From NCBI RefSeq assembly GCF_003663845.1, contig NZ_RCCA01000001.1, positions 3,596,001 through 3,660,000 of the forward strand: a stretch of DNA of 64,000 nucleotides. Direction: 5' to 3'. The notes below the pieces were generated by a model. That model worked only from the letters and a program-made list of their open reading frames with translations. It did not search any database and was not told the origin of the DNA. Shown one piece after another: positions 22,980-47,102 of the stretch. The position numbers were made by a program, and so were the translations under genes. Position 1 is the first letter of the stretch. Each line of letters opens with the position of its first letter. Source of the DNA: Chryseobacterium sp. 7. Lineage in GTDB: Bacteria > Bacteroidota > Bacteroidia > Flavobacteriales > Weeksellaceae.

Positions 22980-23450
22980 TTAGAATTTTTCCCAAGCAAA
23001 GTGCATCCAGTCATAATTCTTTTCACGTCCAAGGCTTACAAAACCATGCTTATAGAATATATCAATCATAGGCTTATATTCCGGACGTGCAAATCTAGCC
23101 GTTATGGCTGTTTCTTTTAATTTGTTCCTGGCTGGGTCAAGGTCAATAGCAAGTCCCCAGGCGTGCACGGAATAACATACCCCTCCTCTCTTTTGGCGGA
23201 AATTAAAACATCCACCGTACAAATCGATTCCAAGCTCCTTTAATCTTTCATATCCGTAAAATCCCAAAAGATCATTAAAAATCGCCTTTAATGGCTCAGC
23301 AATATCTTTATGGCAAGATATTTTTTTAACTGATTTTTCGACATCCCAAGCAATGCGCATTGGATATGGCAAATCAATGGTTACAAGATAGCCGGATCCT
23401 GTCTCATTTGGGAACCCGAATCTTTTAATATATTGTGATGTTGTTTTCAT
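22980..23450 (-). CDS. Phage endolysin, M15-type peptidase
   Basis: A 156-residue enzyme expected to cut the peptide part of peptidoglycan. The zinc-binding motifs are [12 protein letters not shown] near residues 91-102 and DWMHFAW near 146-152, in the order typical of L-Ala-D-Glu or D-Ala-D-Ala peptidases. No signal peptide is present, so release would need a holin. It is the last gene of the minus-strand lysis block, directly after three small membrane proteins. Confidence 0.88.
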
Positions 23451-23452
23451 TA

Positions 23453-23647
23453 TTAATCATCATTTTTTTCTTTTATATCCTTTTCTTCTTTTTTGATCTT
23501 TAACAAGTGAAGCCTTATCTGAAGAAAAAGTAAAATGCACCCTCCGATAAAAAGGATAGATTTTTCAACGGATTCAGTTGTTATAATACCGGCACCAGTA
23601 AATAGATATGTTAGCATGTTCATTGCTTTTTCTTTGATTTCTGCCAT
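23453..23647 (-). CDS. Small single-helix membrane protein of the lysis cassette
   Basis: A 64-residue protein with one or two hydrophobic stretches (about residues 12-44) and a strongly charged C-terminal tail ([15 protein letters not shown]). This layout is common for holins. It overlaps the upstream membrane gene by 28 nt and ends 2 nt before the endolysin start. Holin function is inferred from position and topology only. Confidence 0.7.
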
Positions 23648-23952
23648 TGTCTTTTTTCAATTAAAATAATACCTACGATACATACTGAAAAAGGTATTAT
23701 GGTGTACATTCTACTATATTCAAAATCAAAAAAGAATTTTAATACAACGTATATTAAAATACTTATAGATAGCGAAATACCTATTTTACGCACAACACTA
23801 CTCTTGTTTTGCCAGAAAAGTAATAGCAACGTTAAGTAATTCGCTATAAAATATAATCCACTCCAAATTTGATTATTTGGATCTCCTATTGTTGAATATA
23901 TCAAAGTAAAGATCATCAATAGTATTAATGGTATTTCGCTAGATCTTATCAT
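23620..23952 (-). CDS. Multi-helix membrane protein of the lysis cassette
   Basis: A 110-residue protein with about four membrane helices and a basic C-terminus ([11 protein letters not shown]). No family is recognised. It lies between two other small membrane proteins in the lysis block and could be a holin, an antiholin or a superinfection-exclusion protein. Confidence 0.7.
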   Translation of the reverse strand: MIRSSEIPLILLMIFTLIYSTIGDPNNQIWSGLYFIANYLTLLLLFWQNKSSVVRKIGISLSISILIYVVLKFFFDFEYSRMYTIIPFSVCIVGIILIEKRQWQKSKKKQ

Positions 23953-23953
23953 T

Positions 23954-24187
23954 TTAGAATCCTTTTCCGGGTGTTACAGCTCCATCGTCTTCCGCTAATC
24001 TTGACGTTACGGACCTATTATTATTTGTATTCCAGAATTTAGCAAGAATGACAGATCCTATTCCGTAAATTAATTTTACGGCATCTTCATTGTGAACTAA
24101 ATTCTCTACTATTTTAAACTGCTGGTCTAATGCAATAGATAGTACCCATCCGATTAACGCCCAATTTTTTGCGATAAACTTTTTCAT
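23954..24187 (-). CDS. Small holin-like protein
   Basis: A 77-residue protein with two weak membrane segments (about residues 8-22 and 38-52) joined by a charged turn, and a polar tail. It starts 2 nt downstream of the FISUMP gene and is cotranscribed with the lysis block. The topology suggests a phage holin, but I recognise no specific family. Confidence 0.65.
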   Translation of the reverse strand: MKKFIAKNWALIGWVLSIALDQQFKIVENLVHNEDAVKLIYGIGSVILAKFWNTNNNRSVTSRLAEDDGAVTPGKGF

Positions 24188-24189
24188 TT

Positions 24190-25104
24190 TTAATTATCAT
24201 TTTTTAGCAGAGTTTCTTTGTATACATTACCTTCGTTAGTAATCTTCACATAGTAAACCCCTTTATTCATAGATTCAATATTAACTGGCTCCGATTCGTT
24301 TAAACTCTTGCTCAGAATTGTATTACCTAGCATATCATATATTTCAACCTTACTACTATTTTTTAGCTTTAAAGAAAAACTACTTTTTGCCGGATTTGGA
24401 TATAAAATGTAACCTTTAGAAACTCTCTCTGTTTCGGTAGGATTTAGATACAGTCTATTTACTGAATCATCTTTAATACATCTTACATTACCACCTCTTG
24501 GCTTATACATTGAATTTACCTGTAATGATTTTGTAGAACCAGGTATCCCGCCTGACCAGTAGAAAACCAAGGCAGATACATAATTCAAATAGCCCAAAGA
24601 TGTAGTACTCCAATACATTCCGGAAGCATTATTTGAAGTCATTGTTCCTCCCACATTTTGAGTTCCTGCTGCAGGTAAGAAAAGAGAGTTATTAATCAGA
24701 ATACCGCTTGTATGTCTATTATATACATCGTATCCGTCCTCATAGAAGTTTCCAACCCATTGAACAGAGTTGTTGGCAATTATACCTTTCCATTCTGCAC
24801 CCGTTGGGATCCTATATCCAGAAGGGCACGGATCATTAGCTGTTTTTGTAGCATCACTCAAGGCATTATCAGGTGCTGAAACATTCCAATCAGTTGAAGT
24901 ATCTACTTTGTTGGAAGCTCCCCATTGAAACTTATCACCTTTAATTCCAAGCGAAGGGGTTGAAGCTGGCAAAGATGTATCTGCACCAATATTGTAATCA
25001 AGAAATGTCCTCAAATCACCAGGCGCTACATAAGCTTGTTGATTTTGTGAATTACCAGCAATGCTAATTAAGGATAGCATCAATCCTAAAAATAGATTTC
25101 TCAT
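24190..25104 (-). CDS. Phage-borne FISUMP-domain protein with a T9SS sorting tail
   Basis: A 304-residue protein. Residues 1-20 are a signal peptide. Residues 85-205 carry the FISUMP (C-type-lectin-like) pattern: DPCPSGYRIPTGAEW, GMYWSTTS and GGNVRCIKDD. The last 80 residues are a type A T9SS sorting domain with YILYPNPAKSSFSL, VEIYDMLGN and GVYYVKITNEG. It therefore should reach the host cell surface, not the virion. It lies between fibre and holin genes in one minus-strand transcript, so it may be lysogenic cargo, or a receptor-blocking protein. Confidence 0.85.
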   Translation of the reverse strand: MRNLFLGLMLSLISIAGNSQNQQAYVAPGDLRTFLDYNIGADTSLPASTPSLGIKGDKFQWGASNKVDTSTDWNVSAPDNALSDATKTANDPCPSGYRIPTGAEWKGIIANNSVQWVGNFYEDGYDVYNRHTSGILINNSLFLPAAGTQNVGGTMTSNNASGMYWSTTSLGYLNYVSALVFYWSGGIPGSTKSLQVNSMYKPRGGNVRCIKDDSVNRLYLNPTETERVSKGYILYPNPAKSSFSLKLKNSSKVEIYDMLGNTILSKSLNESEPVNIESMNKGVYYVKITNEGNVYKETLLKNDN

Positions 25105-25116
25105 TTTGTTAAAATT

Positions 25117-26799
25117 TTAATTATTATTATTTCTAAGAATGTTTACTATTCTATAAGCAGTAAGCGATTTTGCACCACTTCTAAGTCTTAGCGTATATCC
25201 AGCAGTATTATCAGATGTTTTCACAGCAAAAAACCTAAATGATAATCTTTGATTGGTTGCGGCAACTCCATCTATGTTAATTCCCTTAATATCCTGATCA
25301 ATAACCACTCCGCTAGGATTAACAATTGAAGCCTCTAAAGTACCGTCAGCACCGCCCCCAGCGTATGAAACTTCAAGTACTATTCTAAAAATATTTAAAT
25401 TTTTGTCTGATGTATCTAAAATATTTCCTGCAGCAGATATTAATTCTGATACCGTAGCACCTGTTTTAGAAGCTAATGTATTCACTACCCAAGTAGAACT
25501 AGTATTAAGATTAATATCTACAGTAGTATTAGTATTTAAAGCACCTAAAGAAGCACCTGAATTCGTTAGTAAAATCGTTGATATAGGATTAGTCAATATA
25601 TCACCGCTTCCAAGTAAAGAAGTACCGTTTATAGTTTTTATATTCGTTCCTGAAGTTAGTAATGTTTGTTTAGGTCTCATATTACCTATGAAATCCATAT
25701 CTGAAACTACTCTTCTAACAATCTTGGTTGAACTTGCTCCTCCATCTCCATTATCTACTCCTAATAATGTAACCATGACTCCTGCAATATCATTGTTCCA
25801 TATAGGAGATGCGTTTGACGCCTTTGGAATAAGAATGCTAGTTACAAAACCATTTTTAATAACGTTAGATAAAGTTGAAGTTGTTTGATTTAATCCGTCC
25901 GTTTGAGTTGTAATGTTTTGAGCTAGCAGTTGAGCAGAATGTATTCTGACCTCAAATAATGGAAGAGAAGGGGCTGCTTGACCATAAGTATATGATACTC
26001 TCAAGATATAGTTTGTGGCATCTTGAGTATAATCTATTATTTTTATAGATGGTATTACTCCTCCCGCTGTAGTTAAACTTGTTTTATCTTCCCACCCAAA
26101 AGTACCATCTGGCTTTGCTATAATCTGCTTCGTATAAGTTGAGTCACCTTGTAATGCCGTAGCTTTAATACCTGCTACCGTAATAGTATTGGTTGTTACA
26201 GGATTTCTTGTTGTTACTGTTTGCAGGGTGTCAGCTTCACCAGGAGTCATATCTATATAAGCGCTTCCAGACCATCTATAAATTTTATTAGTATCTAAAG
26301 CCAAATATATTTTTCCAGATTCACCAGGAACAGGAAAAGCTGCTAAATTAACTCCCTCAATTACATCATCAACATAACTCGGAAGCTGTGAAGCCGGAAC
26401 TTTTCCACCAACTAAATCTGCTTTGTTCAACAAATCAGATTCCTGCGCAAAAGGATCAGGGCTCTGGTTTTTAAATGCGGCCAAGTCATATGCAGAAGGA
26501 TCAAATGTGCCGCCTCCTCCACTTGATCCTGGCTTAAAATTTACCCATCCCTCAGAAACTAAAAAATCAATTGCAACCTTCGGATCACTACTTATAGAAC
26601 CTCCATTGTATAACAAAGAATCTAACGGTCCTGAGTATATTACATCAGTTACATTAAGAACATAAACGACATATTTATTAGCCCCTGCTATTAGTTCATT
26701 TTTTATTTTTATCCCTGCTTGTGATAGGTAAACAGTATTTCCATTATTCCCAATCACATATTTAGCACCGCTACTTGTTTTTCCTATTTCAAATGCCAT
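25117..26799 (-). CDS. Tail fibre-like structural protein
   Basis: A 560-residue protein. The N-terminal 100 residues are beta-rich and end in a Gly-rich hinge. Residues 125-195 hold the module common in phage fibres (GKVPASQLPSYVDDVIE, then GKIYLALDTNKIYRWSGSAY). The C-terminal 300 residues are long beta-strands with Thr- and Asn-rich stretches, as in fibre shafts and tips. It lies directly upstream of the FISUMP gene in the minus-strand transcript and follows the 700-residue tail protein. Confidence 0.8.
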   Translation of the reverse strand: MAFEIGKTSSGAKYVIGNNGNTVYLSQAGIKIKNELIAGANKYVVYVLNVTDVIYSGPLDSLLYNGGSISSDPKVAIDFLVSEGWVNFKPGSSGGGGTFDPSAYDLAAFKNQSPDPFAQESDLLNKADLVGGKVPASQLPSYVDDVIEGVNLAAFPVPGESGKIYLALDTNKIYRWSGSAYIDMTPGEADTLQTVTTRNPVTTNTITVAGIKATALQGDSTYTKQIIAKPDGTFGWEDKTSLTTAGGVIPSIKIIDYTQDATNYILRVSYTYGQAAPSLPLFEVRIHSAQLLAQNITTQTDGLNQTTSTLSNVIKNGFVTSILIPKASNASPIWNNDIAGVMVTLLGVDNGDGGASSTKIVRRVVSDMDFIGNMRPKQTLLTSGTNIKTINGTSLLGSGDILTNPISTILLTNSGASLGALNTNTTVDINLNTSSTWVVNTLASKTGATVSELISAAGNILDTSDKNLNIFRIVLEVSYAGGGADGTLEASIVNPSGVVIDQDIKGINIDGVAATNQRLSFRFFAVKTSDNTAGYTLRLRSGAKSLTAYRIVNILRNNNN

Positions 26800-26808
26800 A
26801 TTTTATTA

Positions 26809-28911
26809 TTAAATACAATTATACGTTTGTGATACTCCAGTTATCTGTCCAGTTACTGGGTTTACATCATAAATAACATTACCGCCTGGTAATCCTGCAA
26901 ATCTTATCCATCTAATTCCATTACTATTAAACCCAGAAGCACCTCCGCTATCGAAAGACGACAAATAACCTGGCGTTGCAGGAGTAACACCGTCCATTAA
27001 AAATATAAATGGATTTGATGAAGGATGTCCGGATAACTTTACCTCTTTAGTCCATTGATTTCCGGTATAACAAATACTACTACCTATAACATTGGGGTCT
27101 ATTGGGCTGGAATATCCGGCTGGGATTGCTTGCACTGGATTATATTCAATGTAATTACAGGTATCTAACGCATTTATATATCCATCAATAACATTTCCAT
27201 TTAGTCTTACTATTGGAGTTCCTATAAATGCGCAAAAATCAACCGTTGGATTTTGAATATCCCCTACAAGCTCCGAAAAAGCCTTATAAACACCATATTG
27301 AGGTGATCCTTGTATGGGCTCTTTGCATCCGAAATACTCTATCTCAAGCAAATCTGTTGGCTGGAAAGTAAATACATTTATGTAATGAAACTTACACTCA
27401 GGCGTATTAAAAGAATAGACGTATTGCCTTAATACATTAGTATATGTTTTATTATTATAAATATCCGTTATTTCTACTCTTAAATAATACCAACCGGGTG
27501 TATTTATTTGGGTAAAAAATATAGTATTCGGAGTCGGATTAGTATTTCCGTCAATCCAATTTATTCCATCTGTACTATATTGAGATTTTGCAGTATTAAA
27601 AACAGACGATCCACTTGTTATTTTATAGATAGCAAGATTACTACTTGCAGTAACACTTCTCAATATTTTTGTTCCATCGGGCCATGTAAGATCACTTTCG
27701 ATTTCAATGTCTGCTAATTCCAGAACATTAGGCAAATTCGGATCTGTAATATCATTTGATATTTGCAATGAGTTTTCAAAAACATCAGCGAAAATTTTAA
27801 TTGTTAAAACATCACCTGGCACAAAGCTATTGGTTGGAATAAAACTGGTATTAATAATTGATGATGGGAATAATACAGAACTAGTCAAGCTACTTTCTAA
27901 AATTCCATTCCTAAATAATTGACCAATATTTACAACCCCATCTTTAACCTTAACAGCATGATTGAATTCAAATCTGAATCGAATACCTATAGATGTTAAA
28001 GTATTAAAGTCAATAATTTGGTTATTTTCGTCAATAGGTACAAAACTAGGATTGACAACAGAATCTATATTGTAATATATTTTTTTTACGAATGGTTTTG
28101 TGTTGTCAAAAATATTCGTCGAATCTAATGTGATATTATTTCCGTCATTATCTAGAACATTTACAACCTTCAATACTCCGGTTGCATTTTTATCAGTCCT
28201 TTCAATTTTCTCACTTAATGATTTTTGTATTCCATCTATAAAAAATAGATTATTCCTTCCAGCATTCTCTATAAAATTCAATATATTATTGTCGCAATCA
28301 GATGCTATTTCATAAGTTGTCACAAAATCAGAATAAGATTCTTTTACTTTTTTTGAAGAAACGCCACCTATACGATTATGTTCTAATTCTAATTCAACAG
28401 ATGTTTCTCCTAAACAATAAGCCGGAATAGTAGTATGAAACCAACAATTTTCATCATCAAAAGGGAATCGGTTAATACTATATGAATGCCTGGACGACAG
28501 AGTAATATATTTTCTTCCTAAGCCATCGCTGCTATCAACAAATTTAACCTCATTACTTACAAGTATTTCGTTGCCTGTATCCTTAATCACTAGTCTACCG
28601 CATAAAAACTCATCACATTTAAAAGTAATACAGCTTATTTTTTCATTATATAAATCAAAAATAGCTGACAATGGATAGTCGTTGTTTCCAGACCTTAAAT
28701 AAAGCTTTAGTCCTATTGTTGAGATTGCATTACCCCAATTACTAGGAATAGGGAAGCGATGAATAGCGTTTATCTCCAATTGGTAAGCATTTAAGAAATG
28801 AATATCTGCTCTTTTACCCCAAAAAACAGTATTTTCGGGATTATTCATATCAGTAAGGTAGCTTTCATTTGGGTAAAACCTTACAGGTGATAAATAAGGA
28901 AACATTTGCAT
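26809..28911 (-). CDS. Large phage tail or baseplate protein
   Basis: A 700-residue protein rich in beta-strands, Asn and Ile, without signal peptide or membrane helices. It lies between the 1010-residue tail protein and the fibre protein, which places it in the distal tail. No specific family is recognised; the C-terminal half has fibronectin-like segments (WYYLRVEITD and similar). It has its own promoter of the phage late type, which ends almost at the start codon; the second Met, at residue 3, is an alternative start. Confidence 0.7.
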   Translation of the reverse strand: MQMFPYLSPVRFYPNESYLTDMNNPENTVFWGKRADIHFLNAYQLEINAIHRFPIPSNWGNAISTIGLKLYLRSGNNDYPLSAIFDLYNEKISCITFKCDEFLCGRLVIKDTGNEILVSNEVKFVDSSDGLGRKYITLSSRHSYSINRFPFDDENCWFHTTIPAYCLGETSVELELEHNRIGGVSSKKVKESYSDFVTTYEIASDCDNNILNFIENAGRNNLFFIDGIQKSLSEKIERTDKNATGVLKVVNVLDNDGNNITLDSTNIFDNTKPFVKKIYYNIDSVVNPSFVPIDENNQIIDFNTLTSIGIRFRFEFNHAVKVKDGVVNIGQLFRNGILESSLTSSVLFPSSIINTSFIPTNSFVPGDVLTIKIFADVFENSLQISNDITDPNLPNVLELADIEIESDLTWPDGTKILRSVTASSNLAIYKITSGSSVFNTAKSQYSTDGINWIDGNTNPTPNTIFFTQINTPGWYYLRVEITDIYNNKTYTNVLRQYVYSFNTPECKFHYINVFTFQPTDLLEIEYFGCKEPIQGSPQYGVYKAFSELVGDIQNPTVDFCAFIGTPIVRLNGNVIDGYINALDTCNYIEYNPVQAIPAGYSSPIDPNVIGSSICYTGNQWTKEVKLSGHPSSNPFIFLMDGVTPATPGYLSSFDSGGASGFNSNGIRWIRFAGLPGGNVIYDVNPVTGQITGVSQTYNCI

Positions 28912-28915: not shown

Positions 28916-28955
28916 CAAAAATATTTTACAAATGTTTAACTGTTTATCCTGAAAA
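28916..28955 (-). promoter_or_regulatory. Phage late-type promoter 2
   Basis: On the minus strand the 18-mer TTTTCAGGATAAACAGTT (28,955-28,938) is followed after exactly 14 nt by TATTTTTG (28,923-28,916). The same 18-mer and spacing occur before the portal gene. The -33 region has no TTG but overlaps the end of the 18-mer, which suggests an activator site. Confidence 0.6.
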
Positions 28956-29309
28956 CAAATAAAACTAAAGCTTATTTTTTATATTATTAGTAATCAGAAA
29001 TGTAGTAATATACTACTCAAAAAAAACGAGCAAATAGGCATTAATACTATTAATTTAGTCTTTATACAAATTAATAAAACATATGGCATGGTATATATTT
29101 TTATTCTTTAATTTGTGATTGACAAAAGCAGTCAGAAGTAGTATTTTGTTTTTTTTTCACATTTACCATTAAAGTATTTTTTGTATAATTTATAATGTAT
29201 GCCATTTACTATTAGTTAAACAAATTTTTCCCCTCATGCATATATTATAAATTGCTTTCTTCAAATACTTTCCGGACTGTCTAGTTTTAATTAGCAGTCC
29301 GTTTTTATT
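28956..29309. other. Phage intergenic region, mostly featureless
   Basis: About 350 nt of AT-rich sequence between two tail genes. It ends with the CGGACTG hairpin at 29,273-29,301. I see no gene in either strand. Confidence 0.5.
29273..29307 (+). terminator. Phage hairpin of the CGGACT type
   Basis: CGGACTG / CAGTCCG with a 15-nt loop followed by TTTTTATTTT on the plus strand. It lies just after the stop of the minus-strand tail gene ending at 29,310, so in that direction it acts without a T-run. Confidence 0.55.
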
Positions 29310-32300
29310 TTATAATGTAATAGATTCGGGATATGTTGCATACCAAGGAATATATATCGGAGGATTAATTTCTATAACTTCACCAGATGAAGAATATATT
29401 TTTACCTGGCAGAATAAACTATCTGCTCCATTCCAATCCCTAGAACCAATATATTTAGAAGGGTCCATGAATGCGTAAACCCATTGATGGTTAATTGTTA
29501 CTGAAGAGCTCGGAGTAATGTCTAAAGTCTCGGTTATATCTGACCATATATTTTCACCAATAGCATGGAATTTTCCCCTTACCTCTATTTTTGTAATGAA
29601 AGATCCATCATATGTTGTTATTTGAAGGTCTTTTATTTTCGTCTGACCTATTCCATGACTACCACTATCTCTCTTGTATATAGTCTGTGTGGTAGCACCT
29701 GGGTTCAAAACATTTATACTGGAACCGTTGCTATCACCAGTATACTTAAGTATATTAGATTCTAAAGTATTACCTTCCGAGTCGGTTAAAACAGCTTTAT
29801 AACTATGAATCTTATTGGTTACTGAATCGCTGAAAGTATTATTGATAGTATTGCTTGTAAACAATAACCAATCACCGTCATTAATTTTTTTATAAATTTC
29901 TACACTTACAACATTACTTTTCAAATCTGAAACCTGCACAAAAATATTATATGTACATTGATTTTGTAAACAGAATTTATCATCAGTACCCCCGTAAAGA
30001 TCATTCCATCTTAACCTAATATAAGGTACTTGGCTCTGAATATTACTTTTTATCTTTCCGGCAATTTCTAATTCATTATCCTTGTTATAGTACTTTATAC
30101 TGCCGTTTCCGAATGGATAAATCTTTATAATTTCATCATGAAGTTTTACAGAGACATAGCCCCTGGATGTTTCACGATTGAAAGAACCTGACTCTAATTT
30201 CCCATACCTCCAATTATTCATGAAACTCATATACTCATAGAATGTTACTCCGCTTAATCTAACTGTCTGCATGCCATTGGTAAAGAAAGAATTTCTTTGA
30301 GATCTCATTGCTCCTAAAGTTACATTATCCTCAAGGGTTATTTCTCCACGAATGCCAAATCCGTACAATTCAGGTTTTGTTTCAATTTTCACCTTTCCAT
30401 TATTTTTATACTTCAATGTCTTCAAAAGCTCGGTATCTTTTTTCTTTTCAAGCATTCCGGAAAAGAAAGGATACCATCTTGCAAGTTGATATTTTGGATT
30501 ATGAAGTAAATTTGAGCTAGTATTTGGATTTAAAACATTTATAGCTGTTATAAATCCCTCATCAGCCAATCCTACACGACTTTTTATTACTGAAGAAGTA
30601 AATCTGTATTCAATTTCTGCAAAACCTTCACCTGTCTCAATATTATTGGTTTTATTAAGTTTTATTTTAGTAGGGGTAATTTCTAAAATTTTATAAGTGC
30701 CCTGGTTTAGGCTACTGTTTATAATAGATAAGTTTTGATTCGGTACAATTGGTATTGTATCCCATCCCTGCTCATATTGCTGAATCCATAAGAAACCACC
30801 ACTATTAAAATGCTTTAGCTTTTTAAATGTTCCACGATCAGTAAATCCTTCTTTTTCAATGCAATCTATCAATATAGTGTCATCATCGTTATTATTTGTT
30901 GATGATGAATTATCCAATATTAGTTCTTGGATCTTTTTTTCATCAATAATTAGTTCACTCTGAAGATCTAAAGTTTTTCCCTTTGATACAATAGGCGTCT
31001 GAACCTCCGTATAAGTATTGAAATTTTTTATATCATCTTGCCTTTGTGTTGAGTACTTCTTACTTCCTGTTTTTATGCTATTGTAGCAAAGGTCATTATC
31101 ATTAGAAAAAAATGTCTCTTCCTCTATAAAATCCTTATCCGTAAAGTCGTAACTTTCTACATCTTTAAACCAATATTGTAAGTCTTCAACAACAATTTTA
31201 CCATTGTACACATCATATCCAAGACCTAATAATTTTGAAGCGCCTTTTTCAAACAATGTCTCAAAACTTACCTCTAATTTCTTTTGCCCTAAAAAATGAT
31301 TGAATACCTTACCTCTTAAAAACTGGCCGGTAGTGATATATTGATGATTGAAAATACCAGTTGACAAAACATTACTTTCTATCCTGATTCCATTGTCGGT
31401 AATATTTTCACTTACCTTATCTATAGCGTCTTTTAAATTTACCCATTCAACCCTACGTGATGGAGGTGCGGCATTGATACTTGCTTTAATGGAAAATGAA
31501 GTATTTTTAATGAAAAAAGTACATTCCTGATCAAAAATATAATCACTATCATTTTTTATCATGATACGAATGTGCTCATCTCTATTTAATGTAGTCAAAA
31601 TATTTGGAAAATTAGCTTTAGTTAGTATTAGTTCGCTATTTTCTGCATTTCCTGTGGCATTCGGATGTTTTGAAATATCCAATTCAGCCCAATTAAATCC
31701 ATTTTCATTATTAACTTCACTAGACATTATAACCTCTTCTGATAGCATTTGATAATTATTCCTATTATTACCTATTCCCTTAATAAGATACATGGTAAAA
31801 GGCTTTGCACTGTTATCCTCTATTCTTCTCGATCTGAATATAAGATTTGATATGGTTATAGTAATATCATTATAATCACCATCAGCATACAGCATAGTTC
31901 CCCATTCTTCATCTAATACCATATCGTTATTTTTATAAGGTATAATCGATTTTACTTTACTTCCAAAATGCTCATAATATGCGCCTAACTGACTGTCATC
32001 ACTTCTGCGCATTCTGGGGAAATATGGGTTTGTAGGAAAAAATAACGGACCATAATTATTTTCATAATAAAGCAGATCGTCTTTATCATAAAAACCGTCA
32101 TAAAACCAGAAGCTTTCCAATGTCCTATCACTTTCTTTATATATACCTTCAGTTGGCTCTATAGGAGAAATATCTTTATTATCAATATTTTTAGTGGCAA
32201 ATAAATCTATAGGCTTGTCTTTTCTTGCATAGAACTTGTTTTGACTCTCCCTTTTCTTTACCTCAAACTCAATATATTTACCGCTTTTACCATATCGCTG

Positions 32301-32342
32301 AACATACTTATTAAAGTTGATCTCATAATCTTCATTTAACAA
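29310..32342 (-). CDS. Large tail hub-like structural protein
   Basis: A 1010-residue protein, the largest of the element. Residues 270-420 (around RRVEWVNLKDAIDKV and LLGLGYDVYNGKIVVEDLQYW) resemble the hub proteins of Bacteroidota phage tails. The C-terminal 250 residues have repeated beta-sandwich segments such as VSVEIYKKINDGDWLLF, which suggest carbohydrate or receptor contact. It follows the 193-residue neck or tube-like gene after 2 nt. The exact role is uncertain. Confidence 0.7.
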   Translation of the reverse strand: MLNEDYEINFNKYVQRYGKSGKYIEFEVKKRESQNKFYARKDKPIDLFATKNIDNKDISPIEPTEGIYKESDRTLESFWFYDGFYDKDDLLYYENNYGPLFFPTNPYFPRMRRSDDSQLGAYYEHFGSKVKSIIPYKNNDMVLDEEWGTMLYADGDYNDITITISNLIFRSRRIEDNSAKPFTMYLIKGIGNNRNNYQMLSEEVIMSSEVNNENGFNWAELDISKHPNATGNAENSELILTKANFPNILTTLNRDEHIRIMIKNDSDYIFDQECTFFIKNTSFSIKASINAAPPSRRVEWVNLKDAIDKVSENITDNGIRIESNVLSTGIFNHQYITTGQFLRGKVFNHFLGQKKLEVSFETLFEKGASKLLGLGYDVYNGKIVVEDLQYWFKDVESYDFTDKDFIEEETFFSNDNDLCYNSIKTGSKKYSTQRQDDIKNFNTYTEVQTPIVSKGKTLDLQSELIIDEKKIQELILDNSSSTNNNDDDTILIDCIEKEGFTDRGTFKKLKHFNSGGFLWIQQYEQGWDTIPIVPNQNLSIINSSLNQGTYKILEITPTKIKLNKTNNIETGEGFAEIEYRFTSSVIKSRVGLADEGFITAINVLNPNTSSNLLHNPKYQLARWYPFFSGMLEKKKDTELLKTLKYKNNGKVKIETKPELYGFGIRGEITLEDNVTLGAMRSQRNSFFTNGMQTVRLSGVTFYEYMSFMNNWRYGKLESGSFNRETSRGYVSVKLHDEIIKIYPFGNGSIKYYNKDNELEIAGKIKSNIQSQVPYIRLRWNDLYGGTDDKFCLQNQCTYNIFVQVSDLKSNVVSVEIYKKINDGDWLLFTSNTINNTFSDSVTNKIHSYKAVLTDSEGNTLESNILKYTGDSNGSSINVLNPGATTQTIYKRDSGSHGIGQTKIKDLQITTYDGSFITKIEVRGKFHAIGENIWSDITETLDITPSSSVTINHQWVYAFMDPSKYIGSRDWNGADSLFCQVKIYSSSGEVIEINPPIYIPWYATYPESITL

Positions 32343-32344
32343 GT

Positions 32345-32926
32345 CTAAAGCGTCACATCTCTGAAATCTATTTCAGTAGATTCAATATTTGCAGATTCTC
32401 TCTGCCAAGAGTTCGTAGCAATATATTTCAATTGAACCCCCAGTCCCGAACCTGCCATATCAGCTCCGGTTCTAACTTTGTAGAGCTTTTCAAGGAATGA
32501 AGCTTCATAAAGCCCATAAGCCCCATTTTTCTTCCTCTTTACGATAACAGTTCCATCTTCCATCACAAGGCCAACTCCATATCCTTTAAGATCATATAGT
32601 TTTGCGATTTCATTCTGAAAACATACACCCTGATTCCACATAAGATTCCAGCCTTTGATTCCTCCTCCTACGAAGATGTCTTCCTGGAATGTATTAGAAG
32701 CATATTGCGGATCTTTGTCAGCATCTTCGATACTATCGTGATTTGGAAAGAACATAAGCTTTCCGGCTTTGATATAATCGGATATTTGTTGTAGAGTTGT
32801 TGATTTTGAAAACTCAACATCCATTGTACCAATAAAAAAGTTCACTACCTTTTTATTGCCACAAAACAAACCACCTAACGACACTTTTTTAAGTGTCACA
32901 TCACATGAATTTTCTATAAATGACAT
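32345..32926 (-). CDS. Phage structural protein, tube- or neck-like
   Basis: A 193-residue protein without signal or membrane segments. It has beta-strand segments (VTLKKVSLGGLFCG, GYGVGLVMEDGTVIVKRKK) and a central helical part. It lies between the 203-residue protein and the large tail protein, the usual place of tail-tube genes in long-tailed phages; but no tape-measure gene follows. I therefore call it only structural. Confidence 0.6.
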   Translation of the reverse strand: MSFIENSCDVTLKKVSLGGLFCGNKKVVNFFIGTMDVEFSKSTTLQQISDYIKAGKLMFFPNHDSIEDADKDPQYASNTFQEDIFVGGGIKGWNLMWNQGVCFQNEIAKLYDLKGYGVGLVMEDGTVIVKRKKNGAYGLYEASFLEKLYKVRTGADMAGSGLGVQLKYIATNSWQRESANIESTEIDFRDVTL

Positions 32927-32927
32927 A

Positions 32928-33539
32928 TTAATTACAATTTTTTAATTCGTTAATTTTTTCCTGATCAATACACCCTGTATTGAATTCAATTTTCATCTGA
33001 AAGTATAATACATCAAGCAGATAAACATATTTACTATTGGTTCCGGATTCGTTATTTTCACGCATATTATCAGATATATTCTGATTATATAAATAGCGAC
33101 CAATTTCATTAAGGCTTACTGCGGAATTCTGCCTTAAGTATTCTACAAAACTATTAGCAATTTCAGCCAGCTTTACTTCTGTAGTTTTTGCTCTTGTAAT
33201 ATTTGACACATTATTTATTGTGTCAACTCCGAAAAACATCTCAATATCACCGCTAATAATACCATTAGACTTCATATCAATTCCTTTAGGATAATGAAAC
33301 CATAGTATTGGATATACTCTTCCGGTTTTGTTGGCTACTTTATTTCCTGATTCATCATACTCCCATCCAGTTTTAAAGGCATTTTCCTCTTTCCTTTTGC
33401 GGATAATATGTTGGTTGAACTCCTTTTCATCACCTCCGTAACCATAATTTAAAACTGTTCCCGGAAATACTCCAGATGGATCAAAGTCTTTAATCAAAGC
33501 AAGTGTATATAGGTTATATGGTAAAAATTGGCTTAACAT
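32928..33539 (-). CDS. Phage neck or tail-completion protein
   Basis: A 203-residue protein. A first half with many charged residues (KEFNQHIIRKRKEENAFKTGWEYDE) is followed by a helical part and a beta-rich end (KYVYLLDVLYFQMKIEF). It starts at the base where the upstream connector gene stops, showing translational coupling. The position between connector and tube-like gene suggests a head-tail joining or tail-completion role. No family is firmly recognised. Confidence 0.6.
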   Translation of the reverse strand: MLSQFLPYNLYTLALIKDFDPSGVFPGTVLNYGYGGDEKEFNQHIIRKRKEENAFKTGWEYDESGNKVANKTGRVYPILWFHYPKGIDMKSNGIISGDIEMFFGVDTINNVSNITRAKTTEVKLAEIANSFVEYLRQNSAVSLNEIGRYLYNQNISDNMRENNESGTNSKYVYLLDVLYFQMKIEFNTGCIDQEKINELKNCN

Positions 33540-34237
33540 TATATGCTCCAGTAGTTTTTCGTTATATCTTTACAGGTGAGATCTTTATTTGGGGACCAAT
33601 TTGGAAATAAGTCTGAATGATCACGCAAAAAGGTGAACAATGAAACTTTGCTTTGCTGTGAGCAATGCTTTGTTTTTGTTACAAAACTATTCCATGCCAT
33701 GTGCTCCTTTACAATACTGCTGCTAGGAAGCGTATTCTTTGCCTTCACAATAGTTTCTCCGGTTATAGTTGTGCTGCTTCTCAATTCAATGAGGAAGAAA
33801 TAATACACGTAGTCAATGATCAAAGAAGTATAGAAACCTCTTCCATTAGGATATTTGTAATCTCTGTAAATATTTTCCACCAGAAGACCTTCCCAATGTT
33901 TGTCACAATTACCGCCATTACATCCACAATTACAACCTCCGAAATTTAACCCTATAGTATTAGGCAAATTATTATTATATTGGTATTTATGCCCATAAAC
34001 AAGATATTTCCACCTGTCATCTGCATTATCTTTCACTTTAAACCTTTCCTCGATTGCATCAAACTCCATATTTGCTTTTAAATCATCATACAGGCATTCA
34101 CCCAATACGTTAGATAGGCATTCGGATTCTTTCTCTATCAATAACTGATAAAAATCGTCTCTTTGACAAAGCCCTGCTATATCAGGAACTTGTCTGCTGT
34201 ACAAATTAAAGTCTGATGCTACGAGTAAGTTTGCCAT
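33539..34237 (-). CDS. Head-tail connector-like protein with a cysteine cluster
   Basis: A 232-residue, mainly helical protein directly after the capsid block. Its helical start (QRDDFYQLLIEKESECLSNV) and length fit connector proteins of the gp6 type. Residues around 102-113 hold an unusual cluster, GGCNCGCNGGNC followed by DKHW, which could bind a metal. It overlaps the next gene at its stop codon. Connector function is inferred from position. Confidence 0.65.
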   Translation of the reverse strand: MANLLVASDFNLYSRQVPDIAGLCQRDDFYQLLIEKESECLSNVLGECLYDDLKANMEFDAIEERFKVKDNADDRWKYLVYGHKYQYNNNLPNTIGLNFGGCNCGCNGGNCDKHWEGLLVENIYRDYKYPNGRGFYTSLIIDYVYYFFLIELRSSTTITGETIVKAKNTLPSSSIVKEHMAWNSFVTKTKHCSQQSKVSLFTFLRDHSDLFPNWSPNKDLTCKDITKNYWSI

Positions 34238-34239
34238 CG

Positions 34240-34515
34240 TTATTTTTTAATTTCGGTTGCTTTCTTTCTCATTTCTGAGTACGGATCATCTTCCGAACCT
34301 TTTACAAATTTTCCAGGATATTTGGCAGATAAAGATTCGAATAAGAATTCTCCCATGGTGTAAGCTTTACCTGTTACATAATCCCCTACATTTTCGGTCA
34401 CTGTTACAGAAATTTTCTTAGTGGCATTGAAAGTTTTTTCTTCCTGTCCTGCTTTTTCAGTAAGTTCCTGAACGGCTAATTTTTCAACTGTTTCTGGTGA
34501 TTTTTTTTCTGCCAT
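34240..34515 (-). CDS. Small phage protein after the capsid gene
   Basis: A 91-residue protein. A charged helical N-terminus (EKLAVQELTEKAGQEEKTF) is followed by a beta segment KKISVTVTENVGDYVTGKAYTMGE. It lies 10 nt after the major capsid gene and 2 nt before the connector gene. It could be a decoration or capsid-associated protein. No family is recognised. Confidence 0.65.
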   Translation of the reverse strand: MAEKKSPETVEKLAVQELTEKAGQEEKTFNATKKISVTVTENVGDYVTGKAYTMGEFLFESLSAKYPGKFVKGSEDDPYSEMRKKATEIKK

Positions 34516-34525
34516 TTTATTAATA

Positions 34526-35890
34526 TTAAAGGGTTAATGATGCTTTTACGTTAGTGAACGTATCTTCTACGATAGTTAACGCTCTGTTTTCCGGTAGATA
34601 AGCTATGAAGTACATTACAAGCTCGGATGTCCAGATATTTCTATCAATACCTGCGTTAGCTTCAGGCGTGTTGCCTAATGCGTCATAATAATCCAACTCA
34701 CCGTTAATACCTACTCTTAATTCAGAGAAGTCACCTAACTGGAATGTATCATACGTTAGTGATTCGTCAAGTTCATACTGGATTTTGAAACCAGCGAAAT
34801 TCAAATAAGAAGATCCATTCTCTGTAGTCACCATTGCAATGGAATTACCATTCTGGTGGTTATAGTTTCCGGTAGTATCTTTATTTGTTACAAGATCAAA
34901 CCAAGTAACCTCATTGAATCGGATAAGCTTTGGCATCACGCCATTGAGTCTTTTGTATGAAGCAATTGATGCAGCAATACAGTCGTACTTATTAGCATTC
35001 GCAATAGGCGTTAGATTAGGTACTGGTGTATAAGGTACTGCAACCTCCGTGATTTTCTTTAGAACTTCTTTTGGAAGATTCTCATCAAGTAATCTGGCAA
35101 TCTTTTGGCGGATTCTGTTTGCAATAGCCGGGAACCATTTTCTTAAGAAGGTTGTAGTTCTCCAAAGAATTGCAACATGGCTAATGTCTTCAGTCTGTAC
35201 CGACCCGCTGTATCTAGCGTATGGTTTTAATTCACATTCCTTTAAAACCTTGAAATCTGCAACTACGTTATCATTCCACATTTTAACCTGCACGCCTCTT
35301 AGGTCTTCTAATGTCACATGGTCCATAATCATAGATACAGGCCTTGGCTTTTCAAAGTAACCAACAAAATAAGCGAAAAGAGACTTAAATCCTTCGCCTA
35401 AAGACGTTGAACCGTTTGTTGGATATGTAGCAGCATCTACGTCGTTTACGGTTAAAGTGTCTAAACTATCAAATGCTTTAATTACAACCCCTGGTCTTCC
35501 ACCTTTCAATACTTTGAATTCAGCTTCTTTGTATCCTTTTTCCTCTTCATCACCAAGATTCAAACCTTTATATCCATGATCTTTGAAAACCTCTGCAACT
35601 TTTCCGATGAATCCCTTTAATGTTCCTTTAGCTGGAGCATTAGACAAAGACTGTTGCACTAAAGCTTTTAGATTTTCCTCAGCCTTGTCTACCAATTCTT
35701 TGATGGTAGCAGCGTCTTTTTCCTCTGCTTCGTCAAGTTTAGTTTTTAATGTTTCAAGATCCTCCTCCTGCTTTTCTATTTTAGCGGTCATAGCGGTCTC
35801 GTGCGCTGTCTTTTCTTTAAGATATGCCGTTTGCTCTTCTGGTGTCATTTTCTCCACCTCTTCGGCACTCTTGTAAACAAACTTTTTCAT
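34526..35890 (-). CDS. Major capsid protein, HK97-type
   Basis: A 454-residue protein. Residues 1-80 are a highly charged coiled coil, which fits the fused scaffolding (delta) domain that the prohead protease removes. Residues 110-454 fit an HK97-fold capsid: a glycine-rich N-arm, a long spine-helix region around residues 250-270 (LRKWFPAIANRIRQKIARLL), and an A-domain with ELRVGINGELDYYDALGNT. It lies after the protease gene in the typical order portal, protease, capsid. Confidence 0.85.
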   Translation of the reverse strand: MKKFVYKSAEEVEKMTPEEQTAYLKEKTAHETAMTAKIEKQEEDLETLKTKLDEAEEKDAATIKELVDKAEENLKALVQQSLSNAPAKGTLKGFIGKVAEVFKDHGYKGLNLGDEEEKGYKEAEFKVLKGGRPGVVIKAFDSLDTLTVNDVDAATYPTNGSTSLGEGFKSLFAYFVGYFEKPRPVSMIMDHVTLEDLRGVQVKMWNDNVVADFKVLKECELKPYARYSGSVQTEDISHVAILWRTTTFLRKWFPAIANRIRQKIARLLDENLPKEVLKKITEVAVPYTPVPNLTPIANANKYDCIAASIASYKRLNGVMPKLIRFNEVTWFDLVTNKDTTGNYNHQNGNSIAMVTTENGSSYLNFAGFKIQYELDESLTYDTFQLGDFSELRVGINGELDYYDALGNTPEANAGIDRNIWTSELVMYFIAYLPENRALTIVEDTFTNVKASLTL

Positions 35891-35902
35891 TTTTAAATGA
35901 GT

Positions 35903-36811
35903 TTAAATTAATAATCTGTTAATACGCTGAGTGCTGTTAGGCGGCTCCTCTTCTGTTTTATGTTTTGGAGTGGGTTCCCCCGGCTCACTTTTTTCGTTTG
36001 GCACTGTCATAGTGACAATATTACTAGCTCGTAGAACCGGACTTAGATGATCCAGTTTAGCTTCAGATATAGCGAAGAATAATCCGTCTTCTTCAGCCTG
36101 ATCTTGATTACCGAGTTTATTAATATATTTATCCCAAGTCGTATTATAATCCGCGAAGTCCGGATCATCTGATTTCATGGCTATTTGATACTTTTGATAA
36201 ATCATTCCTACGCTGTATTGATCTACCTTATTTTCAAGAACCATATCATAAAGCTTGCTATGATCTTTTTGACGATATACAGCATCAGCCCATAATACCC
36301 TTGTTTTGCCTTCTTTGTTAACTCCCAGGTCTCGCCAGTATACATCCTTTTCTTTTACCGATTCCAAGTATCCAGCAATGGCGCTGAATGTTTTTTCATG
36401 ATCTGCGATAAAAAAAGTTTTGGAAAAATCTCCGTTTTTATCTGAAATAGACTTTTTAAAAGTGTTGCCAACGTGTACATCTTGATGGCTGTCATACCAA
36501 TAGTAAGTATTACCGATTACACCTCTTTTAATTATTCCATTTTCAAGATCGTCGGTATTACGAGTAATCAAAGCTTTTTCAATTCCGAAATCTTCACCAG
36601 AGAATTTTTTAAAACGCTCTTCGATCTGAAGTAATGAAAAGTCCTTGTATTTATTTTCAATGGTATTGGTAAACTTAACAGGCATTTCAGTTCTTCTGGC
36701 TTTCAGTATTTCAGCCTCGACAGCTTCACGGCTACCACTCTTTAAGATAAACTCTTGAAGATCTTTTTTATCCCGGATAATTCCCTCTTTTAAAACGATT
36801 TGCCTTTTCAT
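35903..36811 (-). CDS. Prohead maturation protease (HK97 U35-type)
   Basis: A 302-residue protein. Residues 110-230 show the prohead-protease pattern: YYWYDSHQDVHVGNTF, the catalytic His in FIADHEKTF near residue 151, the catalytic Ser in DQYSVGMIYQK near 200, and a following EAKLDHLSPVLRAS near 250. It would cut the scaffold part from the capsid protein and mature the shell. The C-terminal 40 residues are Pro- and Glu-rich. It overlaps the small upstream gene (ATGA). Confidence 0.75.
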   Translation of the reverse strand: MKRQIVLKEGIIRDKKDLQEFILKSGSREAVEAEILKARRTEMPVKFTNTIENKYKDFSLLQIEERFKKFSGEDFGIEKALITRNTDDLENGIIKRGVIGNTYYWYDSHQDVHVGNTFKKSISDKNGDFSKTFFIADHEKTFSAIAGYLESVKEKDVYWRDLGVNKEGKTRVLWADAVYRQKDHSKLYDMVLENKVDQYSVGMIYQKYQIAMKSDDPDFADYNTTWDKYINKLGNQDQAEEDGLFFAISEAKLDHLSPVLRASNIVTMTVPNEKSEPGEPTPKHKTEEEPPNSTQRINRLLI

Positions 36812-36945
36812 TTTCTCACTACATTTTTATCGTTAATAGCCTTGTCTTTTTTATCTTTGGCTGTTTTTGCTATTTTATTCAGGTAAGTAGACTTTTCCTC
36901 TTTACTCATTACCTTCATTGCATTATGATCTACCTTAATACTCAT
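36808..36945 (-). CDS. Very small basic phage protein between portal and protease
   Basis: A 45-residue protein, very rich in Lys (MSKEEKSTYLNKIAKTAK in the middle). Its TGA stop overlaps the ATG of the protease gene, and it starts 6 nt after the portal stop codon, so it fits the translation-coupled chain of this operon. The role is unknown; a scaffold helper or DNA-binding role is possible. Confidence 0.55.
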   Translation of the reverse strand: MSIKVDHNAMKVMSKEEKSTYLNKIAKTAKDKKDKAINDKNVVRK

Positions 36946-36950
36946 ATCTA

Positions 36951-38333
36951 TTATTTTTGATCATTTTCCCAATCCTTGTAAATTCCATTCTGAATATTAT
37001 TGAACTGGCTTTGTGAAATCTCACCATTAGCGAGCATTGTTCTCAATTCAAGCAGCTGCATAGACTGATACTCCAATTCAATTTTTTTCTTCTCTATTTC
37101 GCTCTTTTCATCATCATGCTTCTGCTTTTTATAGAAGCTCATTTGTGAAAAATCGAATTTAACTTTCTTTCTTTGTTTGTCGTATCCGTAAAAAGACTCG
37201 AATGACCTGGCTATATTTGCAGACAAAGGAACTATTACTGAGTCATACCATTCTTTTATCTCATTGGAATAGTTATCATATTTTGCCTGTGAGCGATAAG
37301 CGTGTGGGATCTGGAATAAATCAAATATCTTTTCTTCGCTCTCCCTTTTGTCTTTGCTTAAATCTTGTTCGTTTATCGACTGCATAAGATTCACGGCATC
37401 AAGCCCAACCTCTGAGACAAGAATATTCCTAACGTTTGAGTTAAGCTTATCTTCGATAACATCTTTATGTGTCACATGTCCATTTACGGAGTTGATTGGA
37501 TCTGTAAGGTTTTTTCCTGAAAAGCCATTAGCGTTATTCTCCGGACGCTTAGGACTCACAATAATGTTCCCGAAAAGAGACTGAAACCATTTAATAATAT
37601 CATCAGCTCTCTGGATGTGCTCTATATCCTTTGCGACCGCCCAAAGTCGGCTTTTGCCTTTAATAGGGTTTTCAGGATCAGAATTGTCGTAAAAAGGAAT
37701 TAAGAATTTATACTCTGTGGATCCATTGAATAAAGCAGTCGAGTAATGAACCTTAGCGACCTTATTGCCCTTTAAAACTTCATTAGAGAAATCAGTACTT
37801 ACATCGTCAGGATTAAGTAACCAAAATTCAGTTTTATCATTAAGGTATTTTGCTGCAATGGTTCTATAAGTTTTTTCCTGAGAACTAAATCCATATGAAT
37901 CTGTAATAGTCTGTTTGGCTATTTCCTGAGGTAGAACAAAACAATAGCCACCAGCATAATAAAAGCGGGCAAACTGTTTATAAAACTCTTCTCTTGTCTG
38001 GAATTCATTTGGATTATTTAAAATACTGGATAGAGGATCGTTGTCTAATTTTTTACCATTAGAGTCCTCAACATAGATTACTCCCGAATTTAAAGCCTGA
38101 CCTATTCTGTCTACAGCTATGTTAATAGCGGTTATTTTGTAAGAAAGCTCTATAGCATTATTTTCTTTTAATGGAGTAACATGAGTAGAACCACTAAACC
38201 GCTCATAGGCATTTAAAAGATAATCCCTGGCAGAAAAGCGGTCATTGATCACGGTAGTATTATTCTCTACTCCCTTGATCGTTTTAAACCAATTGCCATT
38301 AAAAAATTCAGTAAACCTATTTGCCATATGCAT
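36951..38333 (-). CDS. Phage portal protein, HK97-type
   Basis: A 460-residue protein. The portal pattern includes ISYKITAINIAVDRIGQALN near residue 65, DPLSSILNNPNEFQTREEFYKQF near 100 and a wing region with IEHIQRADDIIKWFQSLFG near 230. The C-terminal part is helical and Gln- and Lys-rich. It forms the ring through which DNA enters the head. It is the first gene of the late minus-strand block and follows a late-type promoter almost without leader; the second Met (residue 3) may be the start. Confidence 0.85.
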   Translation of the reverse strand: MHMANRFTEFFNGNWFKTIKGVENNTTVINDRFSARDYLLNAYERFSGSTHVTPLKENNAIELSYKITAINIAVDRIGQALNSGVIYVEDSNGKKLDNDPLSSILNNPNEFQTREEFYKQFARFYYAGGYCFVLPQEIAKQTITDSYGFSSQEKTYRTIAAKYLNDKTEFWLLNPDDVSTDFSNEVLKGNKVAKVHYSTALFNGSTEYKFLIPFYDNSDPENPIKGKSRLWAVAKDIEHIQRADDIIKWFQSLFGNIIVSPKRPENNANGFSGKNLTDPINSVNGHVTHKDVIEDKLNSNVRNILVSEVGLDAVNLMQSINEQDLSKDKRESEEKIFDLFQIPHAYRSQAKYDNYSNEIKEWYDSVIVPLSANIARSFESFYGYDKQRKKVKFDFSQMSFYKKQKHDDEKSEIEKKKIELEYQSMQLLELRTMLANGEISQSQFNNIQNGIYKDWENDQK

Positions 38334-38344
38334 CTACTACATAG

Positions 38345-38384
38345 CAAAAGTATTTCTGTTTTTTTCAACTGTTTATCCTGAAAA
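38345..38384 (-). promoter_or_regulatory. Phage late-type promoter 1
   Basis: On the minus strand TTTTCAGGATAAACAGTT (38,384-38,367), 14 nt, then TACTTTTG (38,352-38,345). The motif and spacing are identical to the promoter at 28,916-28,955. It would drive portal, protease, capsid and downstream genes. Confidence 0.65.
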
Positions 38385-38457: not shown

Positions 38458-38634
38458 ATGAAGTCAAGGCAATTACACCGTATGGTAAAGAAAAGCGGGT
38501 GGCTTCACATTAGAACTGATGGAAGCCATTACATTTATGAGAAGAACGGCAAAACTTACCCTGTTCCATTTCATGGTTCAAAGGAAGTAGGTAAGGGTCT
38601 TGAAAAAAAGATCATCAAGGAGATGGGGCTTTAA
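38458..38634 (+). CDS. hicA: HicA-family mRNA interferase toxin
   Basis: A 58-residue toxin that cuts mRNA. The family pattern is complete: MKSRQLHRMVKKSGW at the start, the catalytic His in RTDGSHYIYEK near residue 24, and PVPFHGSKEVGKGLEKKII at the end. The length is normal. It is followed after 50 nt by hicB on the same strand, the usual order. It sits between the divergent late promoter and the second Panacea module. Confidence 0.88.
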   Translation: MKSRQLHRMVKKSGWLHIRTDGSHYIYEKNGKTYPVPFHGSKEVGKGLEKKIIKEMGL

Positions 38635-38684
38635 TTAGCCCCTTGTTTTAAAACTTGATTAATAAATAATCAAAATTTGTACTT

Positions 38685-43440: not shown

Positions 43441-43468
43441 TTAAACCAACATTTTAAAAATAAAAGAT

Positions 43469-43861: not shown

Positions 43862-43863
43862 TA

Positions 43864-43976: not shown

Positions 43977-44001
43977 TGAAATAATTTTAAACAATACATA
44001 A

Positions 44002-45536: not shown

Positions 45537-46415
45537 TTAATTTTTATAACCAACATTAAAGCTTACATCCGTTACGATAAAAGGATATTGAGCCTGTAAA
45601 AAGTCTAATGCATATGTAACCACATCCTCTATGCCATCATCATAATTTTTATGAGGAGCAAAAGGGAATTGTTTTATATGTGCTATTGCGTCTTGGTATT
45701 CCGGGTTTGGATGATCTTCGAACCAATGAAGGAACTTAAAGATATGCCTTACAGACTTTATTCTCTCAAGCTTATTGTTTGATTGGTATCTTGGTTTTAA
45801 ATTATAAATTTTATATGTTAAATCGTTGTCTATGTATGATTGATTACTGTTGCTTTCTACGTAATTCTGAGAGGTTTTATAATCTTTAGTCTTTTGTATT
45901 AACTTACCCTCGTTGGCGTGCAGGCTATTCTTATTGTATACCACATCAACAGCGTATGCCTTTCCTTGCTTAATACCCAAGAATAAAGTAGCATAAGAGT
46001 CTTCTCCCGTGTCTTTAAGGTCAGTAAATGAAAATGTAGCCTCGTAATTATCGTTAGCTTCCCTAGTCATTGTCACCCCATCATAGTACATAATCTCATC
46101 CTGAGAAGCTACGGCTTTTTGCAAAAACTGAGGGTCAAACTTATTTCCAGCTTTTCGCTTTTCATTCACAAGAACGGTACTATTCATTCTTATTGGGTCG
46201 AATAATTCATTTACGTAGAATTCTTTTAGTTCTTTTGGGCGTACATCTTCCGTAAGCATAGCCGGAAGTATTACATCTTCATATTGATTTGATGCAAATT
46301 TTGGCTCTTCGTAATACTTACCATGGAACAGATAGTCTGTGTAAACAGAGGAATCGTGTACATTCCAGAATATCAATAACGCCACCAGAGCAACTAAAAA
46401 AAGATCTATTATCAT
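45537..46415 (-). CDS. TerL nuclease-domain-like protein without ATPase domain
   Basis: A 292-residue protein. Residues 125-290 fit the RNase-H-like nuclease of large terminases: SFTDLKDTGEDSYATLFLGI with the first acidic residues, AYAVDVVYNK, NYVESNSNQSYID with the central Glu, and YDDGIEDVVTYALDFL with the last Asp. The N-terminal ATPase with Walker motifs, usually about 250 residues, is absent; a hydrophobic helix (residues 3-18) and about 85 unknown residues take its place. The upstream gene ends in a clean stop 12 nt before its ATG, so this is not a simple frameshift. Confidence 0.7.
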   Translation of the reverse strand: MIIDLFLVALVALLIFWNVHDSSVYTDYLFHGKYYEEPKFASNQYEDVILPAMLTEDVRPKELKEFYVNELFDPIRMNSTVLVNEKRKAGNKFDPQFLQKAVASQDEIMYYDGVTMTREANDNYEATFSFTDLKDTGEDSYATLFLGIKQGKAYAVDVVYNKNSLHANEGKLIQKTKDYKTSQNYVESNSNQSYIDNDLTYKIYNLKPRYQSNNKLERIKSVRHIFKFLHWFEDHPNPEYQDAIAHIKQFPFAPHKNYDDGIEDVVTYALDFLQAQYPFIVTDVSFNVGYKN

Positions 46416-47071: not shown

Positions 47072-47102
47072 CAAATATACAACCTTTTTGGTTGTTTACA
47101 AA
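47072..47102 (-). promoter_or_regulatory. Early leftward phage promoter
   Basis: On the minus strand TTTG (47,102-47,099), a 19-nt spacer and TATATTTG (47,079-47,072). Operator O2 fills the spacer, so a bound repressor would block it. Confidence 0.7.
47079..47095. promoter_or_regulatory. CI-type operator O2
   Basis: ACAACCTTTTTGGTTGT, identical over all 17 positions to O1 at 43,819. It lies between the -7 and -33 elements of the early promoter. Confidence 0.7.

Follow-up and report, generated by a model that had tools for sequence, protein, structure and literature searches.

Two probable late promoters in a Chryseobacterium prophage share a phage-specific upstream element, with a disarmed homing endonuclease as the candidate switch protein in related prophages

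Two sites in a 64,000-nucleotide (nt) stretch of the genome of Chryseobacterium sp. 7 (contig NZ_RCCA01000001.1, positions 3,596,001 to 3,660,000; hereafter the window, in whose coordinates positions are given) probably serve a temperate phage as late promoters, which a protein of the phage would switch on together with the host sigma factor. Each site combines a host-type TAnnTTTG box with a phage-specific element at a fixed distance upstream; the first (P1) lies before the portal gene and the second (P2) before a late gene of 700 amino acids (aa; g700), and the same two positions are used in nine other prophages of the genus. In these relatives, a disarmed homing endonuclease is the best candidate for the switch protein. 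The full reading, to which we give about even chances, is that a homing endonuclease became the late switch in one family of temperate Bacteroidota phages: a nuclease-dead, I-HmuI-like protein with a NUMOD4 motif and a helix-turn-helix (HTH) would act at a private, asymmetric site of ~20 nt that replaces the -33 region and, with the host sigma factor, would activate head and tail operons; the window prophage would have kept the promoters and had its switch protein lost or exchanged. The parts of the two sites are as follows, numbered with the box at -12..-5 after PMC6847099.

38364..38384, minus strand: P1 upstream element (18-mer at 38367-38384; block equivalent to -43..-24 at 38364-38383)
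38345..38352, minus strand: P1 -7 box TACTTTTG, of the form TAnnTTTG
36951..38333, minus strand: portal gene, the first gene after P1 (PF04860, 1.4e-15)
28935..28955, minus strand: P2 upstream element (18-mer at 28938-28955; block equivalent to -43..-24 at 28935-28954)
28916..28923, minus strand: P2 -7 box TATTTTTG, of the form TAnnTTTG
26809..28911, minus strand: g700, the late gene after P2, related to the ~290-aa gene found behind P2 in the nine other prophages

The 18-mer TTTTCAGGATAAACAGTT is exact at both sites (28938-28955 and 38367-38384, minus strand) and is followed in each case by exactly 14 nt and then the box (TATTTTTG and TACTTTTG, respectively), just as an earlier reading made from the DNA alone (the sequence-only reading) had described. 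No further exact copy exists in the 5.09 Mb genome, where the next best matches have two mismatches. Allowing up to three mismatches, the window holds three matches to the 18-mer (the third with three mismatches) against 0.24 expected, and none of 100 shuffles reached three. When all 53 TAnnTTTG boxes of the window prophage were compared pairwise without bias, there was a single 18/18 pair, and 20 shuffles gave no pair. The name 'tail gene' for g700 reflects its position and its homology to the ~290-aa protein family; none of the family libraries searched with it gave a name.

Related prophages were expected in the sequence-only reading to share the 18-mer, and its absence from them had been named there as an outcome that would refute the phage promoter motif. 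Conservation does not extend to the 18-mer; it is the architecture that recurs, each phage having an element of its own. Among viral contigs the exact 18-mer occurred in the phage's own contig and in two stretches of unrelated contigs, and the exact 40-mer that joins 18-mer and box was absent from the genome contigs searched. With up to three mismatches, the 40-bp pattern matched 32 of 320 family genomes; 28 of the 29 non-window loci examined lie inside open frames of at least 100 aa, and 16 are one repeated host sequence. Near relatives of the window phage are rare: a portal search gave seven matches, itself included, in 320 family genomes, only itself in 395 class genomes and one distant match among phage records. 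A decayed relic in genome G166 has a portal remnant with, upstream in the same frame, a 40-mer that agrees at 11 of 18 positions and has the box; it was given little weight, as 25 of 2850 boxes reach 11/18 (including the two window sites and six loci selected by the pattern) and as it misfits the shared motif described below (297 of 2839 boxes score as high). The same genome holds two decayed relics (C13 and C39; L079 and L020), both of which keep terL, terS and a 90-aa gene and have lost most other phage genes.

Conservation of the architecture emerged from prophages of the same genus, collected via the Pfam portal and TerL families and submitted to one identical, unbiased scan of 19 regions that included the window and distant portal relatives. 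An asymmetric element pair at a fixed distance from the box was found in the window and in four other prophages (G122:C9, G041:C12, G124:C1 and G087:C16), and in all five, portal is the gene directly behind the first box, and the second box stands between a ~1000-aa gene and a gene of the g293/g700 type. Two regions (G041:C1 and G232) gave palindromic pairs, which were treated as a separate kind, and 12 regions gave none (G054 a tandem duplicate only). Tandem-duplicate pairs in G054 and G041:C12 and one flanking duplicate in G041:C1 were set aside. The host control, ten joined 40-kb stretches, yielded four pairs that resemble coding repeats or one self-complementary match, and 200 shuffles of the pair-bearing regions yielded five pairs in all. 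Around terS-terL in G041:C1 (L080:18918, L081:1705), two TAnnTTTG boxes in late positions are each preceded, at ~10 nt, by the palindrome GTTTAACAATGTTAAAC, a further kind of late element within this genus. In G232 (joined L113-L025-L114), a prophage with related head genes, the palindrome ACGTACATTGTAC lies upstream of both boxes (36333 and 54280, minus strand).

In the four other prophages with asymmetric pairs, a gene ahead of terS and terL encodes a ~180-aa protein in which the NUMOD4 motif was recognised in every case (E 1e-9 to 1e-11) and a weak HTH_3 match in one of the four. An alignment search of 173 genomes of the genus returned nine strong matches to it (at least 190 bits; the next had 79), five of them new. 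If the NUMOD4 protein and the element belong together, the five new carriers should have the promoter pair, and all five, found solely through the protein, have it at the same two gene positions. The unbiased scan detected the pair in G162, G182 and G073, while that of G138, a 14-mer, falls below the 15/18 threshold and emerged from directed comparison. G070 has three copies of the element, the third before the operon that holds terL; its scan gave 21 pairs, and the eight printed ones are one tandem array outside the late genes and were set aside. The promoter pair is therefore present in 9/9 phages with the NUMOD4 protein, and the 12 pairless regions are without that protein. Four of the nine (G070, G138, G162 and G182) have no detectable homology to the portal, protease and capsid genes of the others; the P1 element is present all the same. 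The virus records behind L141 and L142 carry, at P1 and P2, elements identical to those of G122 and were left out of the count; in the L144/G714 record both places have the element, the P2 box is imperfect (TAATTTTA), and the record was excluded from the 20 promoters considered next. The scan gave no pair in the fragments L141, L142 and L144, each of which holds P1 only, or in the distant NUMOD4 homologue fragments L145, L147, L149, L150, L152, L156, L157 and L161.

Across the window prophage and its nine relatives, P1 and P2 of the same phage are identical in 7-10 of 10 cases at every position from -42 to -24 (mean 9.15 over -44..-25), and the mean agreement just outside this block is 3.6/10 upstream and 4.1/10 in the spacer. 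Similarity of the element at -43..-24 is 18.8/20 within a phage versus 11.0/20 between phages, and none of 200,000 permutations was as extreme. Each region holds two copies of its element (three in G070), the next best site having five mismatches (four in G138). The TAnnTTTG box occurs in 20/20 promoters, though the scan itself required it for most of them. Dyad symmetry is no greater than in shuffles for nine of the ten elements (in the window, 400 of 1000 shuffles were equally symmetric), that of G138 was matched by 47 of 1000, and the two palindromic controls were detected by the same measure. The elements of the relatives share a motif: in a leave-one-out profile, eight of the nine relatives fit, with at most 7 of 2839 background boxes scoring as high. 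The sites look, as the sequence-only reading held, like promoters of a phage-specific late class that pair a host -7 box with a phage-specific upstream element, a design found at the same two positions in nine other prophages; activation at these sites and their late timing are presumptive.

In the sequence-only reading, messages were said to be leaderless or nearly so, and the ATG indeed follows the box by 4 nt at g700 and by 11 nt at the portal gene, which fits the mapped box-to-start spacing of 4-5 nt in F. johnsoniae, as given in part of the published account (PMC6847099). Among the ten phages, the start codon lies 3-4 nt after the P2 box in six and 11-27 nt after the P1 box in all ten; leaderless messages would accordingly be expected in many phages, not in all. 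The host -33 TTG was said to be missing, and none occurs at a spacing of 17-23 at the two window sites or elsewhere among the 20 promoters, but this is a weak criterion, because only 15 of 89 host boxes have a TTG at a spacing of 18-21 and because the -33 motif is described for F. johnsoniae as much less evident than the -7 box (PMC6847099, in part).

The NUMOD4 protein combines a C-terminal HTH with the I-HmuI fold, and its gene lies upstream of the terminase genes in all nine phages. Its relation to I-HmuI is seen in a profile search of the PDB (E 8e-28) and in a Foldseek match to 1u3e (E 5e-8); the AlphaFold model has a mean pLDDT of 82.6. The catalytic residues of I-HmuI are given as D74, H75 and N96 in a passage of PMC12724721. 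When ten late-module proteins (the nine and that of L144) were compared with six homologues at the positions aligned with I-HmuI, D74, N96 and H56 were changed in 10/10 and H75 in 9/10 (G073 keeps H75), whereas the homologues keep H56 and H75 in 6/6 and N96 in 5/6. On this alignment, cutting by the late-module proteins is unlikely, since the active-site residues are lost while the homologues keep H56 and H75. An intact NUMOD4-HNH paralogue (L095:11785-12333) occurs in G041:C12, the same prophage as a disarmed one. Gene families shared by all ten (the nine and L144) comprise one 296-aa gene, two tail-region genes of 149-264 aa (fragments aside), TerL and the NUMOD4 protein. A 1067-aa gene (g1067) and a 293-aa gene (g293) occur in the window as well as in every one of the nine, each of which also has a gene of tape-measure size. 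The NUMOD4 gene is the sole common non-structural gene besides terL. Outside the genus, no NUMOD4 protein was found in 119 genomes of the order at E 1e-25, in a search that had no positive control. The sequence-only reading suggested testing the small HTH proteins for binding to the 18-mer. Those of the window (46428-46703, 46705-46980 and 41624-41869) gave no family match that suggests a late activator, and the best candidate is instead the nuclease-dead NUMOD4/HNH-like protein of the relatives, which is absent from the window.

In the mechanism proposed here, host RNA polymerase with its primary sigma factor would read the TAnnTTTG box, and a phage-encoded protein would bind the phage-specific ~20-nt element at -43..-24 and recruit or hold the polymerase. 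The element is therefore cast as a putative activator site, the NUMOD4 protein is predicted to bind it in the nine relatives, and, once bound, the protein would make up for the poor contact that the host sigma factor has with the -33 region. Head and tail operons would start together, with leaders absent or very short.

Several observations weigh against this model. The window has the element and is without the NUMOD4 gene, which the search of the 173 genomes did not find in the window or its genome (G000), and for which a search for remnants gave a best match of E 0.46. The activator of the window phage may have been lost, exchanged or become too diverged, and the deletion that took half of TerL may have carried away its gene as well. 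Nor does the window element match the motif of the nine relatives, as 144 and 189 of the 2839 background boxes reach its scores at the two sites, and G070 fits the shared motif weakly (49 of 2839). Divergence of the element across phages showed no significant correlation with that of the NUMOD4 protein (rho 0.16; 4062 of 20000), and a control correlation with g293 was likewise not significant. Moreover, NUMOD4 was found only in regions with both g1067 and g293, nine in all, and the window has those two genes without it; joint inheritance with the tail module could therefore account for both element and gene. Finally, the element at -43..-24 could be a repressor site instead.

This last point is the main rival for the sign of control: the element would be an operator through which a phage repressor silences the late promoters in the lysogen, the promoter itself being of the normal host type. 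The box alone might suffice, given that promoters of F. johnsoniae are reported to show the -33 motif far less clearly than the -7 box (PMC6847099), and palindromic pairs do stand near boxes in two other prophages (G041:C1 and G232). Nine of the ten elements, however, lack dyad symmetry beyond that of shuffles (G138 being matched by 47 of 1000), and the early region of the window has dyads of its own with a different sequence; repression at these sites is thus judged improbable. The idea that the two copies in the window are a chance or recombination repeat without function draws on the lack of any exact counterpart of 18-mer and box in other genomes, yet it would leave unaccounted for their equal distance to the same box, their standing as the sole 18/18 pair among 53 boxes and the use of the same two gene positions by nine other prophages, and it deserves hardly any credence.

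For the NUMOD4 protein, the main rival is a role in packaging or as a selfish element: it would be a nuclease that serves packaging or a selfish homing endonuclease beside the terminase, unconnected with the element, which another late-module protein would read. HNH nucleases are often encoded beside the terminase and act in packaging, according to part of PMC5304195, and both the confinement of NUMOD4 to regions with g1067 and g293 and the presence of the element without NUMOD4 in the window speak for such a role. Against it stands the loss of H56, D74 and N96 in 10/10 proteins and of H75 in 9/10, set beside homologues that keep H56 and H75 in 6/6, which makes cutting unlikely; as for another reader of the element, the remaining common genes look like virion genes, and terL. 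We regard this alternative as possible, though doubtful, and retain the disarmed NUMOD4 protein as the candidate activator.

Known phage switches offer partial likenesses to a NUMOD4-dependent late promoter. In the middle promoters of T4 (MotA/AsiA), a host -10-type box is kept and a phage box near -30, read by a phage protein, replaces the -35 box, as would be the case here; unlike those promoters, the element here is ~20 nt long, private to each phage, placed at late genes and combined with a Bacteroidota-type host sigma factor. The late activators of Mu (Mor/C) and P2 (Ogr) similarly act from upstream of a -10-only promoter and serve parallel morphogenesis operons, but their sites are dyads, whereas the elements described here are asymmetric and the candidate protein is of the I-HmuI/NUMOD4 family. 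With the I-HmuI-like HNH homing endonucleases (PDB 1u3e) the NUMOD4 protein shares the fold and the NUMOD4 motif, and it differs from them in that the nuclease residues are lost, that the gene lies upstream of the terminase in all nine phages and that matching private sites occur in two promoters. It is a phage HNH protein, unlike WhiA, which is a LAGLIDADG relative. WhiA nevertheless provides a precedent for a homing-endonuclease relative acting as a transcription regulator and is found through Gram-positive bacteria and Mollicutes, as described in parts of PMC3781837 and PMC11701221.

Other parts of the window prophage are as follows.

29310..38333, minus strand: late operon 1, with portal, protease-like gene (302 aa), gene at the major-capsid position (454 aa), head genes and a 1010-aa virion protein
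22980..28911, minus strand: late operon 2, with genes of 700, 560 and 304 aa, small membrane proteins and an M15 peptidase (endolysin-like)
47072..47102, minus strand: early promoter, for comparison, TTTG-N19-TATATTTG with ACAACC..GGTTGT dyads, preceding 46705-46980
45537..46415, minus strand: TerL fragment, nuclease half only, apparently fused to the start of a small membrane protein

The 1010-aa virion protein at the end of operon 1 belongs to phrog_15220, and operon 2 ends with the M15 peptidase. The TerL of the window is without its N-terminal half, while G166:C39 (L020:9785-11401) has a full-length TerL of 538 aa that is 90% identical over the common part. At 32345-29310, from the 193-aa to the 1010-aa gene, the window has no tape-measure or tail-assembly genes; the other prophages carry several kb of them there. 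Judging from the missing half of TerL and the lack of a tape-measure-sized gene at 32345-29310, the window prophage is probably defective. At the early promoter (47072-47131) there are two dyads, ACAACCGTAAAAGTTGT and ACAACCAAAAAGGTTGT, which are probably repressor operators, and related sequence occurs near boxes at ~43854 (plus strand) and ~47939 (minus strand). Elsewhere in the prophage, a protein with a SocA/Panacea antitoxin domain adjoins a 147-aa protein of phrog_8366 (39290-40223, minus strand), possibly as a toxin-antitoxin pair; two small open reading frames between P1 and the upstream genes (38458-38912, plus strand) resemble a HicA/HicB pair by eye; and the opposite strand encodes a WYL_2 protein, a Rha/KilAC antirepressor and an AntA antirepressor (42272-44637, plus strand).

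Within the literature searched, no late switch of this kind has been described for phages of Bacteroidota. The nine prophages supply ready pairs of promoter and candidate activator with differing elements, making the question directly testable. If the proposed switch is real, it would represent the domestication of an HNH homing endonuclease as a phage activator and would give Bacteroidota a series of promoters that may be orthogonal. Such a switch would further account for the exchange of head modules that lack detectable homology, their control remaining unchanged.

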